Shown in pieces: positions 1-12,522 of a DNA stretch of 35,007 bases. The stretch is from Bacteroidota bacterium (GTDB lineage: Bacteria; Bacteroidota; Bacteroidia; Chitinophagales; Chitinophagaceae), in assembly GCA_018970395.1 (NCBI GenBank), contig JAGWWM010000024.1, positions 1 through 35,007 of the forward strand. Reading direction: 5' to 3'. The translations under genes and the position numbers were made by a program. Each line of letters begins with the position of its first letter. Position 1 is the first letter of the stretch. Under the pieces are notes generated by a model. The model ran no database searches. It saw only the letters and a list, made by a program, of their open reading frames with translations, and was not told the origin of the DNA.

Positions 1-125
1 TCGTTAAAGTGTGTTTTAAAATAGATTATTTGTCTGACCTTATCCACGTTGTAAAGTTAACTAATAATGGAACAACAAAGAAATGATTTTAAGGATTTAA
101 GCAAGGTGTCAATTAATTCAATGGT

Positions 126-270
126 ACATAACGGTTCGCGGCTTTACGCCGGGCGGGTTTATCGTAAATATATTTATTCTTTTTGGCAGTGCAAGGGCGT
201 ATCATGGCGAAGCTCAGCCCGGCACTGCCAACCGTTCAGCCCGACTGGCGTAAAGGCGATGTTATAAGCA
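126..270 (-). repeat. attC-like imperfect palindrome (site 1)
   Basis: On the minus strand the parts run R'' GCTTATAAC (269-261), a 5-base spacer, L'' CTTTACGCC (255-247), L' GGCGTAAAG (150-142), a 9-base spacer ending CGAACC, then R' GTTATGTAC (132-124). The L arms pair perfectly over 9 bp. A nested perfect 10-bp stem lies inside, TTGGCAGTGC (183-192) with GCACTGCCAA (222-231). Unequal spacers flank the paired L boxes, as in attC sites. The whole stretch 1-290 holds this site and no convincing gene. Confidence 0.65.
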
Positions 271-1074
271 TAGCCGATTAACATACTTTACTATTGGCTT
301 AGTTCCCATTTTGATCCATCCTTAAAAACAACTTCATATGGATATGCTATTAAAATCTTTTTCCCGTCTCTGCTTAGAACACTCCATTCACCATATTCTG
401 ATGTGCCAGGTTTTAATGCATCATCAGTAAAGCCTCCGCCCCAACCATCTATAAGGCCTCCCATATCCGCTGGTTCATTAAATGCATTTTCGCCATACCA
501 CTTAAACCGTATTGCGGTTATGACTTTTTCACTTATGTTTTTATATCTCAATGAAACATCTTTATAGTTAGAATACTCTTTGGTCACAAACTTTGCACTC
601 AAAACTTTTACTGGCGCTAAATACAAGCCGCCAGTATCATATTTTGCACCAACACCATTCTTTTCTTCTCTAATTTTTGTTATTGATTCTTCTATATTAT
701 TAGGCATGCCACTTATACTTTGTTTTAAATTGTTTTCTAAACTGTCTTTTTTGGCGAAATATATTTTATAAGTAATGTCTTCGTGTTTTTCATTCAGAAG
801 TTCAAAGTTGATTGGAGCCGATAAATATGTATTACCATAAGCTTTTTTCATATCATCATGAACTTTCTTTGATATTTGAAATTTTTTAAAGGCCTCCAAA
901 TATGCAGCACTATCGGAATATGCTTCAATAATTTCCTCTTTGCTTCCTTCTCGATAGTAGTATTTCTTTTTCATTTGACAACTTGTATAAATTATTCCTA
1001 TGAAAAGAATAAAAAACAATGTGTTAATTTTAGTCATATCCTTCGCTTTAGTTTTTTTTAAGGCTTGCTTATAA
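132..1074 (-). mobile_element. Integron-like gene cassette carrying a lipoprotein gene
   Basis: Read on the minus strand, the unit begins at the G^TT cut point of GTTATAAGCA (1075 down to 1066) and ends in a palindromic site whose R'' box is the exact complement, TGCTTATAAC (270 down to 261). This 10-base complementarity between a cassette's first bases and its own R'' box is what integron excision and insertion produce. The only gene inside (291-1037) starts 34 bp from the boundary, leaving little room for a promoter, as is usual for cassettes. The cassette assignment is inference from this architecture; no intact integrase is present in the window. Confidence 0.65.
291..1037 (-). CDS. Cassette-borne lipoprotein of unknown function
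   Basis: About 248 residues. I place the start at the internal ATG at 1037 because it opens a type II signal peptide, MTKINTLFFILFIGIIYTSC, with the lipobox cysteine at residue 20. The longer frame up to 1427 runs through the attC-like site and is not credible. After the signal comes a charged, helical-looking region (about 21-150). The C-terminal part (about 165-248) looks like a small beta-sandwich, with motifs such as SLRYKNISEK and AIRFKWYGENAF, reminiscent of FxLYD or DUF4352-type extracellular domains. AAGGA precedes the ATG by one base, too close to be a normal ribosome site. Being a lipoprotein it should sit in the periplasm or on a membrane. It is the only gene of its cassette. Function not recognised. 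Confidence 0.7.
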   Translation of the reverse strand: MTKINTLFFILFIGIIYTSCQMKKKYYYREGSKEEIIEAYSDSAAYLEAFKKFQISKKVHDDMKKAYGNTYLSAPINFELLNEKHEDITYKIYFAKKDSLENNLKQSISGMPNNIEESITKIREEKNGVGAKYDTGGLYLAPVKVLSAKFVTKEYSNYKDVSLRYKNISEKVITAIRFKWYGENAFNEPADMGGLIDGWGGGFTDDALKPGTSEYGEWSVLSRDGKKILIAYPYEVVFKDGSKWELSQ

Positions 1075-1203
1075 CGGTTCGGGGCTTGCCGAAGGCGGGG
1101 CGTTTCAGCACTGCCGTTCATTTGAAAAACTAAAGTTCGGTTAAGCACAAAACTGTCATAGAAGCTCGTCACCCCCGCTTTTGGCAAGCCCTTGTTATGG
1201 GCA
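1066..1203 (-). repeat. attC-like imperfect palindrome (site 2)
   Basis: On the minus strand the parts run R'' GCCCATAAC (1202-1194), spacer AA, L'' GGGCTTGCC (1191-1183), L' GGCAAGCCC (1090-1082), spacer CGAACC (1081-1076), and R' GTTATAAGC (1075-1067). An inner GCGGGG/CCCCGC pair extends the stem. The CGAACC-GTTAT junction is shared with site 1, so the two belong to one attC family. Its R'' box is complementary over 10 bases to the far end of the defence cassette at 7216-7225. The gap 1038-1413 otherwise holds only the hairpin repeat described below. Confidence 0.7.
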
Positions 1204-1280
1204 TGTGCTTCTTTTTCAGTCGTCAAGTTGTCGTGTCCGTTTGTGTCTGCTGTCTGCATTGTCTGCTTGTGTGTCGGGGG

Positions 1281-1413
1281 GTTTAATTTTTTAAAAAGCA
1301 AGGAAAAAAATATTTTGAAATTTTTCTTGGGTAGGGCAGGCACACTCTTTTGCAAGCTTTGGACAGTGTTTGGGTTTGTGCGGCTTGCAAATGTGTGTGA
1401 CTGCTGCGTTGGC
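1281..1413 (+). repeat. Hairpin repeat, copy A (left end of defence island)
   Basis: An AT-rich run (1288-1326) is followed by a stem of TTTGCAAGC (1349-1357) with GCTTGCAAA (1383-1391); flanking bases add imperfect pairing. It begins immediately after the stop codon of the last TIR gene. A diverged copy in inverted orientation lies at 6941-7065 at the other end of the operon, sharing CTCTTTTGCAAGCTT, GTGCGGCTTGCAAATGTG and an AATATTTTGAAATT stretch. It could double as a transcription terminator, though there is no clean U-tract. Confidence 0.6.
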
Positions 1414-1794
1414 TCATAATGATTCAATAAATTCTTTCACATTATCCCAAGTCCATTCTTTACAAGCAACACCATACATGTTGTCTGGCTTGTCCGAGTA
1501 TGTCGCTTCTTTGATATAAATTCCCATTAGTGGAATTTTTTCCTCCTTTGCACAATCAATTTCCCAAAGTTCACCTTCCGCTTTTTTGGAGTTTTTAGAA
1601 ATCAAAGCAATTACGCCATCGCAACCTTTGATTCTACTTCTACAATTTGTTTTCCATTTCTCGTCAAAAGGTTCTTTGACGGACATGTCAACAAACTCAT
1701 AGGGAACTTTTGCATTTTTTGCTTGTCCTGTGAAAAGGATTTTTGTTGTTTCATCTTCAATAGCGAATGCAACGAATACTCTTTTGTTAGCCAT
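1414..1794 (-). CDS. TIR-like (DUF1863-type) protein, second copy
   Basis: 126 residues from the ATG at 1794, which leaves a 20-bp gap after the protease gene. The longer frame from 1845 would overlap that gene and adds 17 residues before the domain. The whole protein is one TIR-like domain: strand VFVAFAIED (6-14), FVDMSVKEPF (34-43), CDGVIALISKN (58-68), LWEIDCAKEE (76-85) and a final WTWDN (114-118). The glutamate of the WEI motif (E78) sits where TIR NADases carry their catalytic glutamate. Family knowledge: ThsB proteins of Thoeris use this fold to turn NAD into a cyclic ADP-ribose signal after phage infection. It is soluble, unlike its paralogue at 2785-3276. With the caspase-like gene just upstream, a signalling role is likely; the product is not shown by sequence. 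Confidence 0.8.
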   Translation of the reverse strand: MANKRVFVAFAIEDETTKILFTGQAKNAKVPYEFVDMSVKEPFDEKWKTNCRSRIKGCDGVIALISKNSKKAEGELWEIDCAKEEKIPLMGIYIKEATYSDKPDNMYGVACKEWTWDNVKEFIESL

Positions 1795-1814
1795 GTTATT
1801 TGTTTTTAAGTTTT

Positions 1815-2783
1815 TTAAATGCGTTTCTCTTTTACTAATCTCCAATAGTGATAACCCAATGCCGTCAGTTTACAGGATTTTGAATTCATTGCAGCGAAAT
1901 ACATAAACGGTTCGCCAACTGGAACAACTAAACCAACTCCTTGAAATTTTTGAAGGTGTTTGAATATTGCAACATTCTCTGGCTTTGCATGTGGCTCAAC
2001 AACTTTGTGTTCAACAACTGGTGCATTTGTATCTTCAAATGAAGGGTCTAAATAAAATTCGTCTTGCGGTGTCGGGAAATAGTCAACTAACTTTCTCAAG
2101 ATGTCAATTGGAACTTGTGGAGTAACTGTCCGCAAAGAAGTAAACCTTGTAATGTTTGTTTTGAAAACTGGTCTTTGATCCCAAGGTCCAAGTGCTTGGT
2201 CTATGTATGCGTAAACACTCCCAGGTGTAATGTGTCCACGAAGGTCTGCTGCACCTCCTTGTAAAGCATCCAACAAAAGATTTGTAAATACTCCGTGTCC
2301 GTTTATTTCAATCGCACTTTCAATATCACGGCTTGCAGTAAGAATTGAAACACCTTCACCGATGTGTGCTGATTTGCCACCTAAATTTTTTGGAGAACCT
2401 AATGCTCCGGAATGGCAACAGTCAAGAATGATTACTCTGTTCTGTGCTTTTGAATCATTTGCAATCGTGAGAATTTCATCCATTGAAACCCCTTCGTCAT
2501 TTGGTTTATAGTCGGGAGTTACAATGTAGCCACCAATATCATCTAACAAACCGTGTCCTGAAAAATAAAGCAATGCTGTTTCACAATCGCCACTAAACAA
2601 TTCAATGATTAGTCCTTTCAACTCCGATTTGGTCGGAACATCTGTTACAAGTCGCACATCAAAATTTGGAGAGCCGTCTCCGTTAGCTTCAATAATTCCG
2701 CTGAACGCAGAAGCATCATTAACGCATCCACGAAGTGGAGCTTTTGGATAGTTGTTTATTCCAACGATTAGTGCTTTTCTCAT
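1815..2783 (-). CDS. Caspase-like protease (peptidase C14), putative Thoeris IV effector
   Basis: 322 residues. The N-terminal two thirds (1-215) is a caspase/metacaspase domain: MRKALIVGINNY start, catalytic histidine in YFSGHG (H77) and catalytic cysteine in DCCHSG (C123). The remainder (about 225-322) is not a recognised protease part; its end, from about 270, looks like a small winged-helix-like fold with LTALGYHYWRLVKEKRI and may bind the activating signal. It starts one base after the stop of the upstream TIR gene (TAA-A-ATG), so the two should be co-translated. In type IV Thoeris a TIR-made cyclic ADP-ribose isomer (N7-cADPR) switches on such a protease, which then degrades cell proteins and stops phage growth. 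The role here is inferred from domain pairing and position. A stand-alone metacaspase is possible but less likely. Confidence 0.85.
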   Translation of the reverse strand: MRKALIVGINNYPKAPLRGCVNDASAFSGIIEANGDGSPNFDVRLVTDVPTKSELKGLIIELFSGDCETALLYFSGHGLLDDIGGYIVTPDYKPNDEGVSMDEILTIANDSKAQNRVIILDCCHSGALGSPKNLGGKSAHIGEGVSILTASRDIESAIEINGHGVFTNLLLDALQGGAADLRGHITPGSVYAYIDQALGPWDQRPVFKTNITRFTSLRTVTPQVPIDILRKLVDYFPTPQDEFYLDPSFEDTNAPVVEHKVVEPHAKPENVAIFKHLQKFQGVGLVVPVGEPFMYFAAMNSKSCKLTALGYHYWRLVKEKRI

Positions 2784-2784
2784 T

Positions 2785-3276
2785 TTAGAATTTGCTTATT
2801 GATTCATCAAGATTATCCCAAGTCCAATCAATTACTTTTTTGCCGTATAATTCAGGTGGCTTTGCTCCTCTGTCATTTTTCTTTATGTGCATTCCTACAA
2901 CTGGAACATTTTCTTCTTTCGCACATGTGATTTCCCACCTTGAACCACCCGAATGCCAAGTGTTCTTACTAAGCAATACAATCATTCCATCACACTTCTG
3001 AATTTTCTCTCTGCACTTTTCTTTCCAAACCTTTTGTGTCCAAGGTTCTTTCACTGACATGTCAACGAATGAGAAAGGAGTTCTTTCATTCTTTGCTTGT
3101 GAAACAAGAAAGTCACGATACTTTTTATCTTCAATAGCGAAGCTGATGAAGATTTTCTTTTTTGATGTTCTATCGTTTGTGCTGCGTTTCCTTTTCTTCG
3201 GTTTTTCTTCTTCTTCGTCAGAAAATGCACTTAAAAGCAATGCACCTATTCCTAATCCGATTAATACTGGTAGCAT
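2785..3276 (-). CDS. Membrane-anchored TIR-like (DUF1863-type) protein, first copy
   Basis: 163 residues. An N-terminal hydrophobic segment (LPVLIGLGIGALLLSAF, about 2-18) is followed by an acidic then strongly basic linker (DEEEEKPKKRKRS), so the protein is probably held at the inner membrane. The TIR-like domain spans 41-163: KIFISFAIED, FVDMSVKEPW (70-79), CDGMIVLLSKN (95-105), RWEITCAKEE (113-122; candidate catalytic E115), WTWDN (151-155). The FVDMSVKEP and CAKEE blocks are identical in the second TIR copy, so they are paralogues. The gene lies 12 bp after the nuclease gene and 1 bp before the protease gene. It likely makes the NAD-derived signal; the anchor suggests it senses an event at the membrane, which is inference. 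Confidence 0.82.
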   Translation of the reverse strand: MLPVLIGLGIGALLLSAFSDEEEEKPKKRKRSTNDRTSKKKIFISFAIEDKKYRDFLVSQAKNERTPFSFVDMSVKEPWTQKVWKEKCREKIQKCDGMIVLLSKNTWHSGGSRWEITCAKEENVPVVGMHIKKNDRGAKPPELYGKKVIDWTWDNLDESISKF

Positions 3277-3288
3277 TTCAAATTTTGT

Positions 3289-4584
3289 TTAGCTGATACA
3301 TTCAATAAATGATTCAACCCATTCGGTTGTTGGTTCGTCAATTGGTGCAATTTCTCTTCGCATTTGGCAAATAGATTCTGCAATCGCAATCATCCACTTT
3401 TCTCCAACTTTGTCAGGGCTTAATCCATACTTTTTTATTTGGAAGTTTATCCATTCGCTGAATTCCATTATGTGAATTTCAGTTTCGTGAATCAATTCCA
3501 GTTCTTCCATTCTCTTTTTGATTTCAGGTTTCAAGTTCGGTTCGTGGTCTGTTACAAAACCTGCTATTGCTGTTTGAGGATGAGATTTCAATTTGTCATT
3601 CAGTTCTTCTAACTCATCTCTCAAATATGCTTTGCCATATTTCGCATCCCAAGATTCAATGATGTCCATATTGCCCTGTGTCATTGTGATTTCAATATCA
3701 CCAATGTTTCCATGCTTCTTGTTTGCTGAACGCATTTGTGAAAGCGGTTTGAGAAAACCACTCAAACATTTTTCTTCTTCCAACACTTGAAAGAATGAGT
3801 GCATTGCAACTTCAAACATTCTTGCTGAATAAGTTGAACTCTCAATGAAACTAGTAATCGTTTTGAAGCAAACTTTGAAACTCGGTTCCTTTTTTAAAAA
3901 TGCTTTGAGTGCTTTTCCTGTCTTTGCAGTTAGTTCAAGAAACGCTTCTGATTTGTTGTTGAGAAAAATCAAAAGCTGTTTTAAAGCATTTACGCTGTCC
4001 ATTTCTTCCCTTTCAACAGCATCGGTTATTTCCAACCACTCTTTTCTTGCTCCACGAATTGCTGCCTTATAAAGTTTTGAGTAAGGATAGTTCTCGGCTA
4101 AACTTCTTGTCATCATAAATCCGTCTGCGTTCAATCGCAAGAGATTATGCTTTCTCAAAACTGGTGTGATGTAATTTTTATCAAGAACTCTCATTGGAAT
4201 TCCTTCTTTCCAAGAGAAGTCGGCACCTGTGCTTCCTTTGTGCAAACGAATTGATTGTGTAGGAAGAATTGATTTCACTGTGAGTTGAAGAATTGTAAGC
4301 CCTACGATTGCTCTGCCAACTTCACTTGTAACTGAATTAACAAGCGATTCAATCACCTCAACTTGTTGCTTTGAAAGTTTATCAATCTTCACTTCGGGAT
4401 TCCGACATTCTTCAATTATCTTTTCAAGAAAACCTTTTTCCAAAGCATCTTTGATTGTCGCTAATCTTTTCTTCGCTTCATCGGAAGTTTGCCCTTCATC
4501 ATAGCGATATTCAACTCCGTCCTCATTCACTAAAATGCTTCGGTCTGAATAGATGTATAAAACTGGTTCGTATTTTTTAGCCAT
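3289..4584 (-). CDS. Putative type II restriction endonuclease, PD-(D/E)XK fold
   Basis: 431 residues from the ATG at 4584, which overlaps the methyltransferase stop in ATGGCTAA (8 bases). The upstream ATG at 4614 would overlap by 38 bases and is less likely. A PD-(D/E)XK active site can be drawn: helix glutamate in MFEVAMHSFF (E258), aspartate in NIGDIEIT (D296) and D-A-K in IIESWDAKYGK (D313, K315). The long helical N-terminal part (about 1-230) resembles the recognition portions of some type II enzymes but I cannot name the site. Position directly behind a C5 methyltransferase and a small HTH controller is the standard layout of a type II system. It would cut DNA not methylated by its partner. 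The same transcript continues into the TIR-caspase genes. Confidence 0.75.
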   Translation of the reverse strand: MAKKYEPVLYIYSDRSILVNEDGVEYRYDEGQTSDEAKKRLATIKDALEKGFLEKIIEECRNPEVKIDKLSKQQVEVIESLVNSVTSEVGRAIVGLTILQLTVKSILPTQSIRLHKGSTGADFSWKEGIPMRVLDKNYITPVLRKHNLLRLNADGFMMTRSLAENYPYSKLYKAAIRGARKEWLEITDAVEREEMDSVNALKQLLIFLNNKSEAFLELTAKTGKALKAFLKKEPSFKVCFKTITSFIESSTYSARMFEVAMHSFFQVLEEEKCLSGFLKPLSQMRSANKKHGNIGDIEITMTQGNMDIIESWDAKYGKAYLRDELEELNDKLKSHPQTAIAGFVTDHEPNLKPEIKKRMEELELIHETEIHIMEFSEWINFQIKKYGLSPDKVGEKWMIAIAESICQMRREIAPIDEPTTEWVESFIECIS

Positions 4585-6526
4585 GTGCTTGTAATGATTT
4601 TTTAAGTTGAACACTCAACGGAGTAAGTGTCGGAAATCTATATGGAATTAAATATTCGTTTTCTGAAATTTCGGGGTTCGTGTTGTTGTTTCTTATTTCA
4701 AAGCCAATCTTCCGTAATTCATAAAAACATTCAAGAATTTCATCTTGCCTCAATTCATAACCCGAAGCAAAATGATTGATGTCTTTAATTTGCCCGATTG
4801 TCGGGTCAATCAAAATCAGTTCAACAACTTTCCAAAAGTTGCTTTCAAGTTTCTTGCTTGACTTCACAAACGAAAATGAAATGTCGTTGGTGTATTGGTA
4901 GTATCCATTAAGTTGAACCAAGTCAGCTTTGATATGATTCTCTGCTAATGCTTGCTCAAAAACTTTCCAAAGAATTGTGTAGTCAGTTTGAATGTTGCTG
5001 CTTGAAATTAAATGCACTTCGTTCACCGAATGAAACAGGGGAGTGCCTCTTGTTCTTTTCAATTCAATTCTGAAAAGTTCTTTGTCATTTTCATTTCTGC
5101 TCAATTCAAAAGTCCATTTCTTGTTTGTTGGTTTGAAGCGAACTTCAATTTCAGATTTCGGATTGCTCTTGATTTTGAAATTCTCTGTCAACTCAACTTT
5201 GTATTTTTTAGAAGCAATTTCTTTTTTCGGTTTCGCTTTGTGATTGTCAAGAGCTGTTGATGCTTTCTGTAAATACTGGTCGGTCTTTTCACTTTTCAAT
5301 CTTCTGAACGAAAGTTTTTCAACTTCTTCAAGGTAGTTGAATTCAAAAGGTAACTCAACATTGAAAAACTGATTCAACACACTTAACGCTAAGAGCCGAG
5401 CAAACTGTGGGGGAACGGAGTTCCCGATTTGTTTGCTTGCAACGGCTCTGTTGCCAAGTATTTTGTAATCATCAGGGAAAGTTTGAAGTCGTTTCAATTC
5501 TTCAATGGTGAAATGTCGGTTCTCCCAATGAAAGGGACCCGTGTATTGTCCGCCTGATGCTTTCAAAGTTCTAATTGGTTTTAATGGGTCTGCTTTGTAG
5601 AGAAAGTCAGAGAACTTTGAACGCCAAGCAAAGATTGGATTCGGGTGTCCCATTTTGTCTGTGAAGAAACTGTAATTCAGTCCTGGCGGAACTTCATTTA
5701 GTAGATGTCCGAACCTTCCATTGATAGAAGGAAGTTTGTCGTTCTCGGGTTTGCCAACATTTAAAATTGCTTGCTGTGCAGAGTAGTGAGGAAATCCTTC
5801 AAACGAATCGGGACCATGTGTTGGCTTTGGAAACTTGAAAGGTTTGTCAATAGAACCAACTAAAATAATTCTTTCACGATGCTGTGGAACTCCATAATCG
5901 GCTGCATCCAAAATGCGATAAGAAACATTGTAACCAATTTCTTTAAATGCTTTCAGAATCTTCTTTATTGATTCTCCTTTTTCTGCTCCCAACAAACCGT
6001 AAACATTTTCAAAAAGAAAACCTTTTGGTTTGAGTTTCTGCAACACTCTCACATATTCTTCAAACAAACTTCCTCTGTCGTCCTTTGTTCCCGCTACTCC
6101 TGCTGCTCTGCGTCCTGCTGCTGAAAAAGATTGACAAGGCGGACCACCAATTACAAAATCAATTTTGGTTGCAATGTTTGGTTCGTATTGTCTGATGTCT
6201 TTGCACTTGATGTTTGCTTGCGAAAAATATTTTCCTGTTGCTTGATTGTGCAGCATCGTCTGCACAAACTTGTCTTCAAGTTCAACTGATTCAATAAGAG
6301 TAAAACCCGTGTCGCAAAATCCAATGTCCAGTCCACCTGCACCTGAAAACAAAGCAACAATGTTAATTGGCTCTTTCAGATTCCTTTTTGTCCAGTTTCT
6401 GATTGCTTTTCCAAACTCGTCAGGCGATAAATTATCACTGTCAGAAATTTGAGAACAAATTTCTTTGTAGCTGTTTTTACTTACGGCTGTTTCAAAAAAA
6501 CTAAGTTGATTTATTTCTGCTCTCAT
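4577..6526 (-). CDS. DNA (cytosine-5-)-methyltransferase of the type II R-M system
   Basis: 649 residues, long for a type II C5 enzyme. Motifs in order: I, ALFSGAGGLDIGF (58-70); IV, GGPPCQSFSAAGRR (127-140) with catalytic Cys131; VI, ENV (173-175); VIII, QHRERI (215-220); X, GNSVPPQFARLLA (368-380). The target recognition region lies between about 225 and 360. A further 265 residues after motif X show no known domain and may help DNA recognition or partner contact. It methylates cytosine in the host copy of the recognition site and so protects against the nuclease encoded next. The start overlaps the controller stop as ATGA, and its own stop overlaps the nuclease start, so translation of all three is probably coupled. 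Recognition site unknown. Confidence 0.93.
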   Translation of the reverse strand: MRAEINQLSFFETAVSKNSYKEICSQISDSDNLSPDEFGKAIRNWTKRNLKEPINIVALFSGAGGLDIGFCDTGFTLIESVELEDKFVQTMLHNQATGKYFSQANIKCKDIRQYEPNIATKIDFVIGGPPCQSFSAAGRRAAGVAGTKDDRGSLFEEYVRVLQKLKPKGFLFENVYGLLGAEKGESIKKILKAFKEIGYNVSYRILDAADYGVPQHRERIILVGSIDKPFKFPKPTHGPDSFEGFPHYSAQQAILNVGKPENDKLPSINGRFGHLLNEVPPGLNYSFFTDKMGHPNPIFAWRSKFSDFLYKADPLKPIRTLKASGGQYTGPFHWENRHFTIEELKRLQTFPDDYKILGNRAVASKQIGNSVPPQFARLLALSVLNQFFNVELPFEFNYLEEVEKLSFRRLKSEKTDQYLQKASTALDNHKAKPKKEIASKKYKVELTENFKIKSNPKSEIEVRFKPTNKKWTFELSRNENDKELFRIELKRTRGTPLFHSVNEVHLISSSNIQTDYTILWKVFEQALAENHIKADLVQLNGYYQYTNDISFSFVKSSKKLESNFWKVVELILIDPTIGQIKDINHFASGYELRQDEILECFYELRKIGFEIRNNNTNPEISENEYLIPYRFPTLTPLSVQLKKSLQAHG

Positions 6527-6849
6527 TTTTTTGATTTGGTTTTGTAGTAAGCAACTTTTGCTTCTGCTACTTTAAATGTATCAAGGTCTGCTTCTTCTTC
6601 TATCATTCTGTAAGCGAACTGGTCGCTTAGAAATTCTTTCAGTAATTGTTTTTCGTTCACTTTGAAGAACAACGCAATTTGCTTTATCTGTTCTTTTGTT
6701 GCTTGTCTTTCGTTGCGTTCAATTTTTGCCAAGAGTGAAGTATCAATTCCAATTTCATTGGCTACTTCCCTCAATGAAAGTTCAGCTTGCTCACGAAGAG
6801 TTCTAAGCTGTTCTCCAAAGCTTGTCACACTATTTTTTGTCGTTGCCAT
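6523..6849 (-). CDS. XRE-family HTH controller (C protein-like) of the R-M / defence operon
   Basis: 108 residues. A helix-turn-helix of the XRE/Cro type covers about 11-68: FGEQLRTLREQAELSLREVA, then IGIDTSLLAKIERNERQ, with the recognition helix around SLLAKIER. The C-terminal 40 residues are charged and helical. It is the first gene of the six-gene unit and overlaps the methyltransferase start (ATGA). Two matching inverted repeats (GGAC-N7-GTCC) lie just before its start codon and overlap the promoter, so the protein most likely binds there and sets the level of the whole operon, as C proteins do in type II systems. Whether it activates or represses cannot be read from sequence; operator position over the -7 element favours repression at high level. 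Confidence 0.85.
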   Translation of the reverse strand: MATTKNSVTSFGEQLRTLREQAELSLREVANEIGIDTSLLAKIERNERQATKEQIKQIALFFKVNEKQLLKEFLSDQFAYRMIEEEADLDTFKVAEAKVAYYKTKSKK

Positions 6850-6850
6850 C

Positions 6851-6869
6851 TTGGACTAAATTTGTCCAA
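6851..6869. promoter_or_regulatory. Operator 1 (C-box-like inverted repeat)
   Basis: TTGGACTAAATTTGTCCAA has perfect 6-base arms around a 7-base centre. It lies 1 base upstream of the controller ATG (6849) and covers part of the -7 promoter element. Same GGAC-N7-GTCC layout as operator 2; centres are 40 bp apart, about four helical turns. Confidence 0.7.
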
Positions 6870-6899
6870 AGGTAATGAACTTATTTTATGATGGACAAA
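6867..6899 (-). promoter_or_regulatory. Bacteroidota-type promoter of the defence operon
   Basis: On the minus strand TTTG (6899-6896) is followed after 21 bases by TACCTTTG (6874-6867), fitting the Bacteroidota TTTG / TAnnTTTG consensus. The -33 element lies inside operator 2 and the -7 element overlaps operator 1, so a bound controller would directly affect RNA polymerase. The predicted transcript would start very near the controller ATG. Confidence 0.55.
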
Positions 6900-6908
6900 T
6901 AATGTCCA
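6892..6908. promoter_or_regulatory. Operator 2 (C-box-like inverted repeat)
   Basis: TGGACAAATAATGTCCA, with 5-base arms and the same 7-base spacing as operator 1. It covers the -33 TTTG of the predicted promoter. Confidence 0.65.
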
Positions 6909-6918
6909 CGAAAGTTTT

Positions 6919-7204
6919 CAACAGTGCTAACCCTATAAAGCGTTGGCAAAAAACGGCTCTTTTGCAAGCTTGGGTTGTGGGGCGGCTTGTGCGGCTTGCA
7001 AATGTGCCGTTTGCGGGCTGCCAAAGAATTTCAAAATATTTTGTGCAGGGACAAAAAAATTAAAACACGAAGCGTTGGGCTGTCGTGTCGGCAAGTCAGT
7101 CAGCCGAAACTGTCCGAATTGGTCGTATTTATATGTCTGTCAACCGTTCAAAATAGTTGTTATCTGTTTGGTTTAAGTCCGTCTTTGTCATGTTAGCACT
7201 GTTG
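6919..7204. repeat. Upstream region bounded by a perfect 13-bp inverted repeat, with hairpin copy B
   Basis: CAACAGTGCTAAC (6919-6931) and GTTAGCACTGTTG (7192-7204) are perfect inverted copies 260 bp apart. Inside, TTTGCAAGC (6961-6969) pairs with GCTTGCAAA (6994-7002), and TTGGCA (6943-6948) with TGCCAA (7019-7024), giving a long imperfect hairpin. With the AT-rich run to about 7065 this is an inverted, diverged relative of copy A at 1281-1413. No gene is credible between 6910 and 7216; it is the non-coding leader of the defence cassette. Confidence 0.6.
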
Positions 7205-7216
7205 TCAAATAGCATT

Positions 7217-7300
7217 GCCCATAACTCCCTTATCCACGAAACTTTCCTTGTTTTTGTTTCGCTATAAAAACCGAGGGGGTTGGATAGGCGAAGTTGTGAA
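7217..7300 (-). repeat. Recombination-site-like palindrome, attI candidate
   Basis: Arms: ATAAC (7221-7225) and TATCCA (7231-7236) match TGGATA (7281-7286) and GTTGT (7293-7297) in inverse; an inner CGAAAC (7237-7242)/GTTTCG (7256-7261) stem adds pairing. On the minus strand it ends in GTTATGGGC, the first bases of the defence cassette. It lacks the CGAACC-GTTAT junction of sites 1 and 2, and no matching cassette start is visible to its right, so it is a better candidate for the array's attI than for another attC. It lies 24 bp from the 3' end of the recombinase pseudogene. Confidence 0.45.
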
Positions 7301-7324
7301 TCTGTTTCTGTTTCGTTTTATTTT

Positions 7325-8307
7325 TCATTTATCAAGTTTCAAACGGTCAAATGGACTCTCAATTCTCCCCAATGCCTCCCGACTTACATGGGTGTATATC
7401 TGCGTGGTCTTCGGACTCTTATGCCCCAACAACTCCTGAATATACCTTAGATCAGTTCCGTTCTCTAATAAATGCGTAGCATAACTGTGGCGAAGCATGT
7501 GTGTGTTTTTGGTCTATAACGAAGATAATAATTTCTCAACATTTCCAAAATATTTACAGATAAAGGAACCTGCCGGTCTTTCATTCCTTTTCCACCCCTT
7601 ATCATGATCATCATCCGCTTGCTGTCTATGTCTGTCAAAACCAGATTCAATAACTCTCCCCGCCGCAACCCTCCGCTATAAATCAAACTCAACATGCTCT
7701 TATGCTTCAGATTTTCAGTTGCATTGATGATGGCTGCTACTTCAGAAATATCCAATACTTTGGGCAAACTAAATGGCTTCTGCGGTCGTACTAATTTGTC
7801 AACCACTAATTTTTTATCCGCCAAAATCCCATAAAATAACTTCAACGCATTGATAAACTGCGACTGATACGACGCAGATAATTTTCTTTTCAATATATAC
7901 TCGCTATTAAAGTATAATACATCCTCATTCACGATACTCTCCACGCTTCTCCCTTTGTAAAATGAAAAGAAAACTGAAAGCGTTCCCATATAACTGGAAA
8001 TAGTTTGCGCACTATACCTTCGAGAACGCATCCAGCTGCTCAAATGTTCTAATTGATTTACCAACTCCTGATTCACTGCCGTTTCCGGCTGAATCGTTTC
8101 AACAAGCCGATCCTCCAAAGCAATACCGCACAACTTGCGATGCGCTTCGCAATCCGCTATATGCCAGGCCCTTAGCGCCGGACTCCACCTGGCGCCTGGA
8201 ATTTTCTTTATTTCCTGTATCCATGCTGCCCGCTTCTCAAATTTTATGGCAATTCTTTTCTCTCTATGATAGGTTATAATGTCTGTTTTCCATTCTTTTG
8301 GTAGCAT
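7325..8307 (-). pseudogene. Tyrosine recombinase (XerC/D- or IntI-like), frameshifted with internal deletion
   Basis: The first frame runs from 8307 to a stop at 7465 (280 codons). It has an N-terminal region found in Bacteroidota integrases (about 1-65), a SAM-like core-binding domain (about 80-165) and the start of the catalytic domain with the first arginine in SGGLRRGELLNL and the beta-strand lysine in IRGGKGMKDRQVPL. After YRPKT the frame breaks. The next frame continues with [35 protein letters not shown] and a stop at 7325-7327, supplying the HxxR, the second H and the catalytic Y. Normally some 35-40 residues separate YRPKT from HxLRH, so bases are missing as well as the frame. The break sits in an ACACACA run. 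The lost stretch is where an IntI-specific insert would lie, so the subclass cannot be decided. It is unlikely to be active. Confidence 0.8.
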
Positions 8308-8364
8308 AGGTTTTAATTTAGGTGTATTGCTGTCCGGGCAAGTTACAAAAATCGTCGATTAAAT

Positions 8365-8399
8365 GCGAGATCCTCCAGATAAATCGGGATCAATCTCGC
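8365..8399. repeat. Inverted repeat between sixA and the recombinase pseudogene
   Basis: GCGAGAT (8365-8371) pairs with ATCTCGC (8393-8399), and inner ATCC/GGAT adds pairing. It lies downstream of the sixA stop on the minus strand. No U-tract follows, so a terminator role is uncertain. Confidence 0.35.
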
Positions 8400-8417
8400 T
8401 ATCAATCAGGATGACCT

Positions 8418-8912
8418 TTAGTTTCCTCTCTTAGGATAATCAAAAAAATCAAAGACCAGATTTTCAATCAATACCTGTTTCCACTCTTTTATCTCTGTAT
8501 TCAACGCCAGCACGCCGCAGGTGGGTACATTATCAATGCTTAATCCCTGAATCATATTGGCAAATTCGGTAATGCCGGGATTGTGACAAACGACTGCAAT
8601 AGTATGGTAATTCTCTTCACATTGCTGAATAGAGGAAAGAATTACAGAGGGTGGTGCATGGTATAACTCAGGCGTTTCAATCAATGGAATTTCTTCCATC
8701 TTCATTTCTTGCATCATCAACTTTGCTGTAGACAGTGCGCGATGGGCTGTGCTGCTGATAAACAAATCAATCTTTATATTGCTTTGCTTTAATCGATGGG
8801 CCATCGCCGGAGCATCCCGTATTCCTCTTTCATTGAGCGGACGATCAAAATCGCGCTGCCCTATTTCAGCCCAACTGCTTTTGGCATGGCGTATAATCAG
8901 TACTTGCTTCAT
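8418..8912 (-). CDS. sixA: SixA-like phosphohistidine phosphatase
   Basis: 164 residues, usual for this histidine phosphatase subfamily. The RHA motif with the phosphate-accepting histidine is in LIIRHAKSSW (His9), and the second conserved histidine is in VVCHNPGI. The start MKQVLIIRHAK fits the family exactly. Members remove phosphate from phosphohistidine proteins, in E. coli from histidine-containing phosphotransfer proteins; the partner here is unknown. Cytoplasmic. It stands alone, divergent from the gene at 9036. A -7 element TATCTTTG lies at 8943-8936, 23 bases before the ATG. Confidence 0.88.
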   Translation of the reverse strand: MKQVLIIRHAKSSWAEIGQRDFDRPLNERGIRDAPAMAHRLKQSNIKIDLFISSTAHRALSTAKLMMQEMKMEEIPLIETPELYHAPPSVILSSIQQCEENYHTIAVVCHNPGITEFANMIQGLSIDNVPTCGVLALNTEIKEWKQVLIENLVFDFFDYPKRGN

Positions 8913-8935
8913 TTTGTAAAAAGATTCGTGTCAAA

Positions 8936-8943
8936 CAAAGATA
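8936..8943 (-). promoter_or_regulatory. -7 element of sixA
   Basis: TATCTTTG on the minus strand, 23 bases before the sixA ATG. No well-spaced -33 TTTG. Confidence 0.35.
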
Positions 8944-9035
8944 CTCATCACTCGAGGATGCATAAATATTCTTAAGACAGCAAAACTTATTACTTTTAAG
9001 TTTTAACTTTTTACTTTTACATTGAAATTTATCTT

Positions 9036-9572
9036 ATGGATCAAACAACATTAGGTATTGGCACCCGACTGCAACATACACAACATGGCCCGGGCGTAAT
9101 TGTAGGCATAAAATATGCGACCTACCTCATTTCCTTTATTCACAGCGGTATAATGGAAATTGACAAGACTGATACTCAACTCGATGAGATTATCCCGGAA
9201 AATGTAACAGAAGAAATAGAAACACATAGCGAAATAGAAAAAAGTCTGCTGAAAATTCTTCGCCTATGGGGTGGTGTGACTGAAATCGTGCCGCTGGGTG
9301 ATCGGTGGGAAAAAGGCACCATGATATTACAGCCTGCAGATAAAACATTAAAACCCAAAGAGCTTCCCATTGAAGATTTCTTTCACAAGATCGTGATGCT
9401 GCGCGACAGATTGAGAGTATTGGAGCAAAATATCAACAGCTCTAAAAATTTATCCGATGAAGAAAAGGTAAACATTCAGCAATACATTACACGCTGCTAC
9501 GGTTCGCTGACTACTTTCAATGTCTTATTTAAAAATAAAGAGCAGTGGTTTGTGGGAGAGAAGAGCAGCTAA
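9036..9572 (+). CDS. Conserved hypothetical protein with KOW/tudor-like N-terminus
   Basis: 178 residues with no signal peptide or membrane segment. The first 40 residues (GTRLQHTQHGPGVIVGI, then YLISFIHSGIMEI) look like a small beta-barrel of the type seen in KOW or UvrD-tail domains, where an HxxxGxGxV turn is typical. The middle (about 58-75) is helical and acidic, and the last part (about 110-178) is mostly helical. Function not recognised; a nucleic acid or RNA polymerase contact would fit the N-terminal fold but is inference. It has no operon partner: sixA is divergent and the next gene is convergent. The start is preceded by AT-rich repeats of ACTTTT. Confidence 0.7.
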   Translation: MDQTTLGIGTRLQHTQHGPGVIVGIKYATYLISFIHSGIMEIDKTDTQLDEIIPENVTEEIETHSEIEKSLLKILRLWGGVTEIVPLGDRWEKGTMILQPADKTLKPKELPIEDFFHKIVMLRDRLRVLEQNINSSKNLSDEEKVNIQQYITRCYGSLTTFNVLFKNKEQWFVGEKSS

Positions 9573-9616
9573 CGTTTATGGGTTGACAGTTATCTGTTAG
9601 CAGTGACCCGCTACCA

Positions 9617-10387
9617 TTAACCGATGAGCGATGCTATCATACGTCGCGCCTCCTCCGTCAACACCAATTGTCCGCTAATTGCTGCTCTTTCATAGAGTAA
9701 AGTTGACCAATGATCCGTTCCGGTCCAAAGCATTTGCTTAATACCCTTCATTGCTTTGAGGGAAGTGCCGGTAAGCTCATTTACTTTTTTATAGACCGCT
9801 TCCTTGAAGGATTCACTAGTAGAGTGAACTTCAGCAAACAATCCTTTTTGTAACGCCCAGTCTGCACTGTACCAGTTGCCGGCATCTAACGCTAACTGAC
9901 TAAACGCAGCAGTTCCGATTTTTCTTTCTACAGCCGGACCAATCACAAAGGGACCGATACCCACTTTCAATTCGCTCAGTTTAACCGCGGCTTTATCTGT
10001 TGCAATGGCATAATCGCAGGCCGCTGCGATGCCCACTCCTCCACCCACACATTTCGATTGGATCGATCCTACAATCAGTTGCGGAGCCGTACGCATGGCA
10101 TTGATGACATTGGCAAAACCGCTGAAAAATATTTTCCCTTCTTCTTCATTCTTCACTGCGGCAAGCTCATCAAAAGAAGCACCGGCACAGAATGCCTTCT
10201 CTCCAAGCGACTGGATTAATATCACTTTGGTTTGAATATTATTGGAGGAAGCAGTAATAGCTTGCGTTAAGTCGGTCAATAAATGAGCCGGGAGGGCATT
10301 GCCTTTAGGATGATAAAATTCAATAGTGGCAATGCCGTTTTCAATTGCTGACTTTACATAACTGCCGTCCGGTTGCAATGTTGACAT
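9617..10387 (-). CDS. Enoyl-CoA hydratase/isomerase family protein
   Basis: 256 residues when started at the ATG at 10387 (MSTLQPDGSY), the normal length for the family; the ATG at 10465 adds a basic, low-complexity stretch with no family match. The crotonase fold is clear: ATIEFYHPKGNALP near the N-terminus, oxyanion-hole segments FCAGASFDEL and CVGGGVGIAAACDYAIA, and the later LSELKVGIGPFVIGPAVERKIG. The glutamates that act as acid/base in hydratases are not where I would expect them: the second site reads KVGIGP. Exact reaction is therefore open; hydratase, isomerase or a thioesterase-like member are all possible. Cytoplasmic, acyl-CoA metabolism. Confidence 0.82.
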   Translation of the reverse strand: MSTLQPDGSYVKSAIENGIATIEFYHPKGNALPAHLLTDLTQAITASSNNIQTKVILIQSLGEKAFCAGASFDELAAVKNEEEGKIFFSGFANVINAMRTAPQLIVGSIQSKCVGGGVGIAAACDYAIATDKAAVKLSELKVGIGPFVIGPAVERKIGTAAFSQLALDAGNWYSADWALQKGLFAEVHSTSESFKEAVYKKVNELTGTSLKAMKGIKQMLWTGTDHWSTLLYERAAISGQLVLTEEARRMIASLIG

Positions 10388-10790
10388 ATCCGTTAATTTG
10401 AGTCGAAGATACGACCTGTATCGTTGTTGGTTGTTCGATTTTCGTTGTTGGATTTTATTTATCATGAATACGTTAAAAGTGAATAGCCATTGCTGTCCGG
10501 GGAAATTTTAAATGTGAGGATTTTTAAACCAAGAATTAATTCTTTTGATGATTGATTATTTCACGCAAAGCTGCAAAGAGGCAAAGCTCGCAAAGGACAA
10601 GACGTCATGTTGAGCAATAGCGAAACATCTCTTAATGGCTTAACATAGTAGAAAAATGAGATCCTTCGCTTACGCTCAGGATGACGGCTTGGTTACTTTC
10701 TTTTAATCAAGTAAAAGAAATGCTTTGCATTCAATGTGGTCAAAAAACTTTGTGTTTTTACTTACACATCATTTCCAGCTGCTTCATTTT
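10388..10790. other. Intergenic stretch with repeat remnants, no gene seen
   Basis: About 400 bp between the hydratase start and the umuC end. It holds ATTGCTGTCCGGG (10489-10501), also found at 8326-8338, a hairpin repeat (10603-10686), and an AT-rich inverted repeat TTTCTTTTA/TAAAAGAAA (10697-10705 with 10712-10720) downstream of umuC. The open frames crossing it look unlike protein. Confidence 0.6.
10603..10686. repeat. Interspersed palindromic repeat (GTCATnnTGAGC type)
   Basis: Left arm 10603-10631 begins CGTCATGTTGAGC and ends GAAACATCTC; right arm 10658-10686 begins GAGATCCTTCGCT and ends CTCAGGATGACG. The arms pair imperfectly over about 29 bases. A degenerate half copy (GTCATATTGAGC, then CGAAATGTGTAGCG) lies at 27985-28025. 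Such elements are scattered in many Bacteroidota genomes. Confidence 0.6.
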
Positions 10791-12077
10791 TCACCCGACT
10801 TCAAAGAGTTCCTTCCATTCGGTAGTGTATTTTTTACTGCGGTGTTCCTGGCGCATCTTCCAGGAGCGGCCGATGCCGGCAGCGCCAAAAGATACCATGT
10901 CTTCGCGCATGCTGAAGTTGAGGTTGTCTATAGCGCGTAAAAGTTTTTTGTCTGTAGAAGACTCAGCAGTATGAAAAAGATTGCCCTGTATGGCGTTGTC
11001 GGAAACAATCTCATAAAGCATTACCCCTGCTTTGATATAGGTTTTCCCTTCTTCAAAAATCGTATTGACTAAGGGAAGCGCATAGGCAATCAGTCGGCGC
11101 GTATCGGCGGTAGGAAAGGGTAAGGTAACAGCGGCATGGGTGGCGCGCGGATGATACCCATTCGAAGGATAATCTTTTTCGCGCGCCACCACAAAAACGT
11201 CCAGGGCTGTTGCGGCGCCATGCTGGCGCCGCAACTTCTCCGCCGCCCTCGACACATAACTGGCCACCGCTTCCTTAAGTTCCGCCAATGTAGTCACCTG
11301 TCTTCCAAACATCCGCGTCGTCGCTATCATCTTCTTCTTTTCCAGCGGATCCTTCAATTCTATACAAGCTTCTCCCCTCAACTCCCGAATCAATCTTCTC
11401 CCTACCACCCCGCCAAGATTTTTTTGCGCCCAGCCCTCCTGCATGCCACTCAATGCCTTCGCTGTATGAATACCATACATCTCCTGCAGCAAATAAGCAT
11501 ATCGCCGACCTACACCCCATATATCCCCCACCGGCGTTTGCTCCAACGCATCGTCTATCCCTTCCCGACTAGATAGTACCCGAATGCAACCCGTCGCTTT
11601 TTTATTTTTCTTTGCCAGCCGATTCGCCACTTTACTCAATACTTTAGTGGGCGCAATGCCAATGGAAACCGGAATGCCGGTCCACTGCTCCGTTGTATTG
11701 CGCAAGCGCTCTGCAAAAGCATGCAGCTCCGACTCCGACAAATCGGGCAAGGTGATAAAAGCTTCATCTACCGAATAAACCTCCACCTGCTGCGCACCCA
11801 CCATCATCCGAAGCGTATCCATTACCCTTCTACTCATATCTCCATACAAAGTATAATTACTGGAAAACACGGCGACCTGATGCTGCCGGATTTTTTCCTT
11901 ATTCATAAAATACGGCTCTCCCATCACAATCCCTGCCGCCTTAGCCTCATCTGTCCGCGAAATAATACAGCCGTCATTATTACTCAATACCACCACCGGT
12001 CGGTTCTTCAGCGAAGGCAGAAAGAGTTGCTCACAGGAACAATAAAAACTGTTGCAATCCACAATCCCGATCATCAT
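10791..12077 (-). CDS. umuC: DNA polymerase V catalytic subunit UmuC (Y-family)
   Basis: 428 residues, full length. Y-family signatures: MIGIVDCNSFYCSCEQLF with the first catalytic aspartate, VVVLSNNDGCIISR in the finger region, and YSVDEAFITL with the catalytic D-E pair. A helix-hairpin-helix (about 185-215, PVGDIWGVGRRY) and little-finger domain follow, and the C-terminus KYTTEWKELFEV is the usual UmuC ending. It copies past DNA lesions at low fidelity during the SOS response. It starts 13 bp after the umuD stop, one operon with it. There are two adjacent ATG codons; either may serve. Confidence 0.93.
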   Translation of the reverse strand: MMIGIVDCNSFYCSCEQLFLPSLKNRPVVVLSNNDGCIISRTDEAKAAGIVMGEPYFMNKEKIRQHQVAVFSSNYTLYGDMSRRVMDTLRMMVGAQQVEVYSVDEAFITLPDLSESELHAFAERLRNTTEQWTGIPVSIGIAPTKVLSKVANRLAKKNKKATGCIRVLSSREGIDDALEQTPVGDIWGVGRRYAYLLQEMYGIHTAKALSGMQEGWAQKNLGGVVGRRLIRELRGEACIELKDPLEKKKMIATTRMFGRQVTTLAELKEAVASYVSRAAEKLRRQHGAATALDVFVVAREKDYPSNGYHPRATHAAVTLPFPTADTRRLIAYALPLVNTIFEEGKTYIKAGVMLYEIVSDNAIQGNLFHTAESSTDKKLLRAIDNLNFSMREDMVSFGAAGIGRSWKMRQEHRSKKYTTEWKELFEVG

Positions 12078-12090
12078 TGTATGCGATTAA

Positions 12091-12522
12091 TTATCCCACG
12101 GCATGAATAGAATACACCACTACCCCCCATAACTTGAAATCGCTGAACTCGGAAAGATTGATGGGCTTGTAGCGGGAATTTTCCGGCACCAGAAACGATG
12201 ACGTGAAGTTGCGGTGAAATCGTCGCACCAGCAATTCTCCATTGAGAATGGCCACAATGATCTTGCCATTATTCAGCGGCAAAGAGCGATCCACAATCAG
12301 CACATCTCCTTCAAAAAGACCGGCATCCTGCATAGCGTCTCCTTTCATTTTAAAAAAGAAGGTTGCCGGCTTATTGCGAATCAACTGCTCGTTTAAATCA
12401 ATACCCCTCCCGGCATAGTCGTCGGTAGGCGCCCCGAATCCGGTGGCATTCGCCACCGGCACCTGCTGCTGCGTAAATTGTTTGCTGCCCTTATAGGCAG
12501 CGCCAAAAAATAACTCATCCAT
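12091..12522 (-). CDS. umuD: UmuD-like protein (S24/LexA family) lacking the catalytic dyad
   Basis: 143 residues. It aligns along E. coli UmuD: ATGFGAPTDDY at the self-cleavage region, GIDLNEQLIRNKPATFFFKM, GLFEGDVLIVDRSL, GKIIVAILNGELLVRRF and the end LWGVVVYSIHAVG. The serine of the GDSM motif is alanine here (KGDAMQDAG, codon GCT at about 12337-12339), and the lysine of the VKK motif is arginine (LVRRF). Both members of the Ser-Lys dyad are missing, so self-cleavage to UmuD' should not occur. The rest of the fold is well kept and the gene leads into umuC, so it may serve as a permanently full-length regulator of the polymerase, or be matured by another protease. The start is clear and no frameshift is seen. 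Confidence 0.88.
   Translation of the reverse strand: MDELFFGAAYKGSKQFTQQQVPVANATGFGAPTDDYAGRGIDLNEQLIRNKPATFFFKMKGDAMQDAGLFEGDVLIVDRSLPLNNGKIIVAILNGELLVRRFHRNFTSSFLVPENSRYKPINLSEFSDFKLWGVVVYSIHAVG

Follow-up and report, generated by a model that had tools for sequence, protein, structure and literature searches.

In the DNA analysed here, the whole 35,007-nucleotide contig (C20) of a 2.4-Mb Bacteroidota genome of 74 contigs (genome label G000), hereafter called the window, the minus strand carries from 6849 to 1414 the genes C, M, R, TIR1, caspase and TIR2 in that order. These six genes probably constitute a composite defence operon, in which a restriction-modification (R-M) unit of controller, methyltransferase and nuclease (C-M-R) is fused to a two-TIR type IV Thoeris module behind the C-controlled promoter, is carried as integron-like cargo, and would combine restriction early in infection with shutdown of the cell late in infection. 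The gene identities, the common strand and the tight packing reported in a preliminary description of this DNA are borne out by the coordinates and by Pfam (Table 1), and the catalytic residues it named, C123, H77, E115, E78 and K315, proved correct by alignment. Loci fetched for comparison are designated by L-numbers and genomes by G-numbers; C39 and C12 are other contigs of the same genome.

Six-gene operon and its two modules

Consecutive genes either overlap, by 4 bp (C/M) and 8 bp (M/R), or are separated by 12 bp (R/TIR1), 1 bp (TIR1/caspase) and 20 bp (caspase/TIR2). For R the ATG at 4584 was used, the mechanical start of the open reading frame being a GTG at 4614. The G+C content ranges from 35.7 to 39.7% across the six genes, compared to 43% for positions 8501-35007; since it is alike in all six, composition cannot separate the origins of the two modules. 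The idea of chance neighbours was rejected in view of the packing, the single consensus promoter and the recurrence of the arrangement elsewhere. A phage-borne unit was likewise rejected, with relatives of R in none of 50,697 phage records and relatives of the caspase in 2 phage records.

Table 1. Features of the operon and of its surroundings in the window
Feature	Coordinates	Strand	Basis and remarks
C, Cro/C1-type helix-turn-helix (HTH) controller, 108 aa	6523-6849	minus	Pfam HTH_19 2.2e-11; 86% identity over 99 aa in G126
M, C5 cytosine methyltransferase, 649 aa	4577-6526	minus	DNA_methylase PF00145 4.4e-63; 82% identity in G126
R, predicted PD-(D/E)XK restriction nuclease, 431 aa from ATG	3289-4584	minus	motif and C5 methylase neighbour
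TIR1, ThsB-like TIR, 163 aa, E115, hydrophobic N-terminus	2785-3276	minus	ThsB_TIR PF08937 5.7e-12
Caspase-like protease, 322 aa, H77/C123, C-terminal extension	1815-2783	minus	Peptidase_C14 PF00656 2.3e-17; PADLOC caspase 1e-21
TIR2, ThsB-like TIR, 126 aa, E78, without hydrophobic start	1414-1794	minus	PF08937 1.9e-5
Promoter and predicted operators: TTTG at -33 (6899), 21-nt spacer, TACCTTTG at -7	6853-6907	minus	pattern scan
Type-2 palindromic repeat, 3 bp behind TIR2	1331-1410	minus	seed copy of the model
Type-2 palindromic repeat, in front of the C promoter	6940-7019	minus	seed copy; 82% over 51 bp to the copy at 1345-1395
Type-1 attC-like hairpin repeat behind the operon	1065-1200	minus	hairpin model, covariation
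Type-1 attC-like hairpin repeat	124-268	minus	89-93% identical to five C39 copies
Cassette-like gene, small protein, lipoprotein-like start (inner ATG, by eye)	291-1037	minus	no family above cut-off
Broken XerC/integron-integrase-like tyrosine recombinase, two pieces (7465-8307, 7325-7498)	7325-8307	minus	below all cut-offs; compared with the intact L075 relative

The region ahead of C matches what would be expected for an autoregulated C promoter. The promoter is of the Bacteroidota type by its consensus, and the corresponding pattern, TTTG-N17..23-TAnnTTTG, has a single match on the coding strand within 1414-6950, at 6899 ahead of C; when the mononucleotides of the operon strand were shuffled, 14 of 300 shuffles contained it at least once. 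The palindrome GGAC-N7-GTCC occurs twice in the 35 kb, at 6853-6867 and 6893-6907, both copies standing ahead of C and overlapping both promoter boxes, whereas 0.15 copies are expected by chance per 35 kb and 2 of 100 shuffles reach two. In G126, a genome from another genus of the family (Chitinophagaceae), both promoter boxes and the distal palindrome are conserved, and their distance from C is almost unchanged. As far as sequence can tell, one regulated consensus promoter stands in front of all six genes, which would accordingly share their expression, and the single promoter previously assigned to the operon stands as the sole Bacteroidota-consensus match on this strand, before C.

The nuclease R has no match above cut-off in three libraries, which include Pfam, PADLOC and NCBIfam, and its assignment as the predicted PD-(D/E)XK endonuclease cognate to M was made by motif and neighbourhood. 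The DI(E/D)...(D/E)xK motif with K315 (ATG numbering) is kept in five of six aligned relatives, one Halorubrum copy being without it, and the R relative adjoins a C5 methylase in all six loci examined (L033, L030, L122, L123, L124, L218). The methylase match in L124 is weak (7e-4) because the contig holds the end of the gene only; in L123 the R relative is interrupted by a stop, and in Halorubrum L030 one methylase is surrounded by three R-like genes. Relatives are rare: among genomes they were found in 2 of the 395 from the phylum and in 5 of the 294 from the family (own genome counted; three of the five are just 26-27% identical), in 1 of 72,556 plasmid records and in one viral contig, a viral scan with R alone as query being uninformative. 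The single-sequence fold prediction of R failed at a pLDDT of 39.7, and the best hit of a solved-structure search with the R relatives was OR280 at an E value of 0.013. Contig C12 of the same genome (L038, G000:C12:1-6000) holds a second HTH protein, 48% identical to C over 69 residues, at the beginning of what by eye resembles another type I R-M operon.

By sequence comparison the operon joins two modules of kinds already known. In G126 the proteins of a C-M-R unit are 86, 82 and 82% identical to C, M and R, and the DNA aligns over 3640 bp at 79.7% (window 3314-6923), reaching from 25 bp before the stop codon of R to a point 16 bp past the outer operator; after the stop codon the two seem unrelated, and the 17 kb fetched around this C-M-R hold no match to TIR1, caspase or TIR2. 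Conversely, L044 (Marinilabiliales) and L046 (Bacteroidia) have TIR1-caspase-TIR2 in the same order but not this R-M; the identities are 75-76, 75 and 53-54%. The separate occurrence of each part points to a fusion of two modules, and one ancient six-gene system was rejected since C-M-R stands without TIR-caspase in G126.

The presence of TIR and caspase genes in one operon supports the earlier assignment of this half to type IV Thoeris, in which the caspase is activated by N7-cyclic ADP-ribose (N7-cADPR) and degrades cellular proteins (PMC12847820). H77 and C123 are invariant among 11 aligned caspases, and E115 of TIR1 and E78 of TIR2 share one invariant column of 18 aligned TIRs. The hydrophobic N-terminus of TIR1, a possible membrane anchor by its sequence, has a similar counterpart in the TIRs of L044 and L046. 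A recent TIR duplication was rejected, TIR1 and TIR2 being 48% identical to each other, TIR1 75-76% to a TIR of L044 and L046 and TIR2 80% to one of L048. Matches were also obtained in 99 plasmid records; in the six regions read, the relative is annotated as a caspase family protein, and its neighbour as a TIR domain protein in four and a hypothetical protein in two. With regard to the two TIRs, it was proposed for Bacillus Thoeris that TIRs are independent sensors (PMC11204291), and in staphylococcal type I Thoeris they sense the phage major capsid protein (PMC12578639). By analogy, TIR1 and TIR2 may be independent sensors as in Bacillus, or an acting pair as in staphylococci.

Restriction-modification genes ahead of other TIR-caspase loci

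For comparison, the best 80 caspase loci were taken among the matches listed from a scan of genome contigs, that is, the best of the candidates seen and not of all; a contiguous run denotes genes on the same strand with gaps of at most 80 bp. One TIR is present in the run of 45 of these loci and two or more in 21, with TIRs on both sides in 11, and two or more TIRs per caspase are thus not rare. With 11 R-M genes as seeds, an R-M gene was found in the contiguous upstream run of seven of the 80 loci (L066, L067, L073, L082, L083, L090, L096), compared to control genes from these loci, of which 4 of 873 have R-M upstream and 3 of 873 have R-M downstream; Fisher's test gives 6e-6 (7/80 versus 4/873), or 4e-5 if the twins L082/L083 are counted once (6/79), a contrast biased towards positives because most seeds were taken from positive loci. 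Relaxing the gaps adds L111 at 200 bp and L047 at 500 bp. A Pfam tally made without seeds found 6 N6_Mtase and 4 HSDR_N among 51 proteins of the upstream runs (101 loci, repeats included), whereas the 91 proteins of the downstream runs include one HsdR-like protein, in L111, and the 25 families shown of their 57 contain no methylase. The linkage noted in the preliminary description thus extends beyond this genome, to seven of 80 loci with other R-M systems, contrary to the refuting case named there of R-M and TIR-caspase genes never being linked in other genomes: the order R-M then TIR-caspase recurs with unrelated R-M partners, but the exact pair of this operon was not found elsewhere.

The partners are diverse. 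Type I hsdM-hsdS-hsdR precedes TIR-caspase in L082 and, by phmmer, in its twin L083, and a type I R-M with a YgjP peptidase does so in L090; L067 has a HaeIII-type methylase-nuclease fusion upstream of the caspase. In L066 (Faecalibacterium) a D12 methylase is accompanied by a protein without Pfam match, presumed to be the nuclease by its position, and L073 (Flavonifractor) combines an Eco57I-type methylase with a BsuBI/PstI endonuclease. Both loci open with an HTH_26 regulator and close with caspase-TIR-TIR, so that HTH and M proteins of other families realise the scheme HTH-M-R-caspase-TIR-TIR. In the stretches fetched from G948 and G817, the D12 methylase of L066 and its partner stand without a caspase. 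Outside the 80, the upstream run of L036 holds an Eco57I-type methylase and a gene with a helicase domain. In L046, TIR1-caspase-TIR2 starts 22 bp past the end of an apparent hsdS, a fragment of 128 aa that matches NCBIfam PRK09737 at 1.7e-7, far under the whole-protein cut-off. In L111 (3458-14394), hsdM and hsdR of a type I R-M system enclose several TIR-profile matches and the caspase. Of 33 viral loci 19 were examined, and two show the order R-M then TIR-caspase: L187 with D12 methylase, presumed nuclease, caspase and TIR, and L194 with hsdM-hsdS-ATPase-like gene-hsdR followed after 40 bp by TIR and caspase. L166 was left out because the gene caller missed its caspase, and L164, L167 and L168 are repeats of L054, L079 and L081.

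Some further arrangements were observed in these loci. Between hsdS and hsdR of L082 (4919-6469), and also in L083, lies a protein with DUF4062 and HATPase_c_4. In L043 (8853-9950) a 365-aa protein, DUF4062-like by eye and without Pfam match at 1e-3, precedes the caspase in the place of the TIR. L100 (10979-12405) has the caspase, then a protein with TIR_2 and FGE-sulfatase, then a small gene that is probably DUF1508 (YegP), and L101, L102, L106 and L171-L173 appear similar from family tallies and gene sizes. In L076 (5721-8045) and L078 (347-2235), an AAA ATPase with a smaller partner, by eye perhaps PARIS-like, is located upstream of caspase-TIR.

Hairpin repeats and recombinase around the operon

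Two kinds of imperfect palindromes, of about 140 nt (type 1) and about 80 nt (type 2), surround the operon, and in the 35-kb contig the repeats enclose just the operon and one further gene. A type-2 repeat also follows TIR2 at a distance of 11-13 bp in L044, L045 (likewise a seed of the model) and L046, and stands behind the R-M unit of L122. Type-1 relatives were found in L122 (behind a distant C-M-R), L040, L045, L035, L225 (own contig C12) and L075 (three copies). The covariation alignment comprises 14 type-1 copies, three of the 17 matches having been left out (insert, partial, duplicate); 11 of 15 stem pairs of the hairpin change on both sides, with 42 two-sided cells against a shuffle mean of 16 and at most 10 in slid controls. 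A known RNA element was rejected, as 1-12000 holds no Rfam match at the gathering threshold.

A one-orientation array of cassettes is seen in two places. On contig C39 of the same genome (L226, G000:C39:1-12000), positions 2040-5970 hold five small units on one strand, four with two genes and one with a single gene, each followed by a 142-nt type-1 repeat; by eye the units are VapBC-, HigBA- and ParDE-like. The other case is Algoriphagus L075 (4423-9796), in the order intact recombinase, TIR-caspase, hairpin, two genes, hairpin, gene, hairpin. Its recombinase scores 223.5 with NF040815 ('tyrosine recombinase/integron integrase'), above the cut-off of 220, and 213.6 with TIGR02249, under the cut-off of 265. 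In L035 a recombinase of the same kind is found upstream of TIR-caspase on the same strand with other genes between, and G126 retains a recombinase remnant about 290 bp before C. In the window itself the pieces at 7325-8307 are broken and stay under every cut-off; the setting, which the preliminary description does not mention, is therefore called no more than integron-like. Integrons occur in Bacteroidota according to PMC8618304, and PMC12444791 cites work on Vibrio integrons as defence libraries. The arrays described here suggest that integron-like arrays of Bacteroidota carry type IV Thoeris as cargo. Elsewhere on the 35-kb contig, a UmuC/UmuD-like pair was seen by eye on the minus strand at 10791-12522.

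Proposed mechanism, alternatives and known systems

In the reading preferred here, of a composite operon with early restriction and late shutdown, autoregulation by C would limit and delay the expression of both layers on entering a new host, M would protect the host DNA, and R would cut unmodified phage DNA at entry. Should restriction fail, a later product of the infection would be sensed by one or both TIRs, of which one may sit at the membrane and the other in the cytosol; they would make a cyclic ADP-ribose signal (N7-cADPR in type IV Thoeris), whereupon the activated caspase would stop the cell before phage release. The staging is suggested by the late capsid sensed by the staphylococcal TIRs and by the degradation of proteins by the type IV caspase, which together would give early cutting and late shutdown under one controller. 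The arrangement also suggests that a single caspase can receive the signals of two TIR sensors, of which one may be membrane-bound. A wider version can be put forward tentatively, as possible rather than probable: unrelated R-M systems (type I and several of type II) would have been joined repeatedly 5' of TIR-caspase to give a recurrent two-stage system, often with two TIRs and sometimes with the R-M controller over all genes, and in Bacteroidota an integron-like platform would swap the parts.

Several observations weigh against these interpretations, apart from the origin of the seeds mentioned above. A sigma-70-type scan of 1000-7300 gave 19 matches compared to 12.5 expected, several of them on the same strand inside the operon (the consensus is not that of Bacteroidota), and the terminator-like matches on the operon strand are two weak stems of 5 pairs, one inside the end of R; little weight is given to these internal matches and to this stem. 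No relative of R was found in the fetched flanks (at most 10 kb) of the best 80 caspase loci, 14 of which have no TIR in the run by the profile used, and two distant caspase-like matches lie elsewhere in G126. The Eco57I-type methylase of L096 is separated from TIR-caspase by other defence genes, the neighbouring R-M genes of L060, L092 and L116 are placed differently, and in L183 opposite-strand genes lie between hsdM/hsdS upstream and the module. Furthermore, the seeds missed an HsdR-like gene directly downstream of the L111 caspase, so that the downstream R-M count of 0/80 is really at least 1/80. Finally, neither hairpin model matches in the 12 bp between R and TIR1; simple cassette-by-cassette insertion therefore fails to explain the junction, and both modules now form one fused cargo unit.

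The main rival, unlikely on the present evidence, would have a promoterless TIR-caspase cassette riding behind a promoter-bearing R-M cassette, with shared transcription and no cooperation. Both the integron-like setting of the operon and the occurrence of the two modules apart would be accounted for in this way, as would the 73 of 80 loci without an R-M gene found in the contiguous upstream run, which also imply that the link is unnecessary for function, although some R-M links may be hidden since just 61 of the 80 have at least 3 kb upstream. On the other hand, R-M linkage exists in L066, L073, L090, L187 and L194 where the models, which were built on Bacteroidota and could miss others, detect no hairpin, and the partners are of several unrelated types and stand upstream in the contiguous cases, except in L111 with R-M on both sides. 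A very improbable alternative, in which the R-M unit prevents loss of the array in the manner of toxin-antitoxin-like cassettes and TIR-caspase merely profits, draws on the C39 array, whose small two-gene units resemble toxin-antitoxin pairs by eye and which bears the same repeats, but it leaves the same order unexplained in loci where no such array was found.

A direct coupling, with restriction, failed restriction or DNA damage by R triggering the TIRs and the caspase serving as suicide arm of the R-M, is likewise quite improbable. The tight operon and the position of TIRs and caspase between hsdM and hsdR in L111 would fit, and 88 of 443 pairs of the damage-responsive capKS directly follow a predicted R-M, and in 12 cases type IV Thoeris comes after capKS; the authors suggest coordination (PMC13373217). 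However, a protein contact common to unrelated partner R-M systems is unlikely, TIR-caspase occurs elsewhere without R-M, and no capK/capS-like pair was recognised among the annotated genes adjoining the operon, where no model search was made. 

In the composite operon preferred here, TIR-caspase would act upon failure of restriction, as the preliminary description proposed; if this is true, layered defence becomes a property of a single regulated operon and not just of whole genomes. The recurrence hints that bacteria repeatedly stack early and late defence against viruses, and the natural R-M/TIR-caspase pairs (this operon, L066, L073, L082, L090, L187, L194) lend themselves to probing order, synergy and shared control.

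Among the titles and beginnings of abstracts listed in literature searches, there was no report of an R-M fused to type IV Thoeris, nor of type IV Thoeris in integron-like arrays; the neighbourhood data of the original type IV description may already contain part of this. The claim that no system of this composition has been described holds within those listings, but operons with R-M followed by abortive infection are in print (PMC13373217).

Compared with known systems, several likenesses and differences can be named. Sedentary and mobile integrons reportedly serve as defence libraries (Darracq 2025, Getz 2025 and Kieffer 2025, cited in PMC12444791), and the present case resembles them in its array-borne defence genes beside a tyrosine recombinase and hairpin repeats; it differs in the Bacteroidota host, the six-gene unit of 5.5 kb with its own promoter, and the broken recombinase below the integron-integrase cut-off. 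In C-controlled type II R-M systems, an HTH controller gene overlaps M, M overlaps R, and palindromic operators cover the promoter. The operon shares the HTH/M and M/R overlaps, the palindromic operators at the promoter and the C5 methyltransferase, in contrast to an R without family match in the three libraries, operators of the GGAC-N7-GTCC type and three defence genes after R. Type IV Thoeris, reportedly described by Rousset and co-workers in Science in 2025, is matched by the TIR genes and caspase-like protease in one operon with conserved catalytic His/Cys and Glu, whereas two TIRs flanking the caspase, the hydrophobic N-terminus of TIR1 and the R-M operon upstream set this operon apart. 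With the staphylococcal type I Thoeris ThsA-B1-B2 it has in common two TIR proteins for one effector, which is a caspase here and the NAD-degrading ThsA there (PMC12578639). A parallel in gene order is given by the R-M/capKS operons (PMC13373217), in which an R-M also stands upstream of a cell-killing module; here no capK/capS pair was recognised, and the module is packed directly under the R-M controller.

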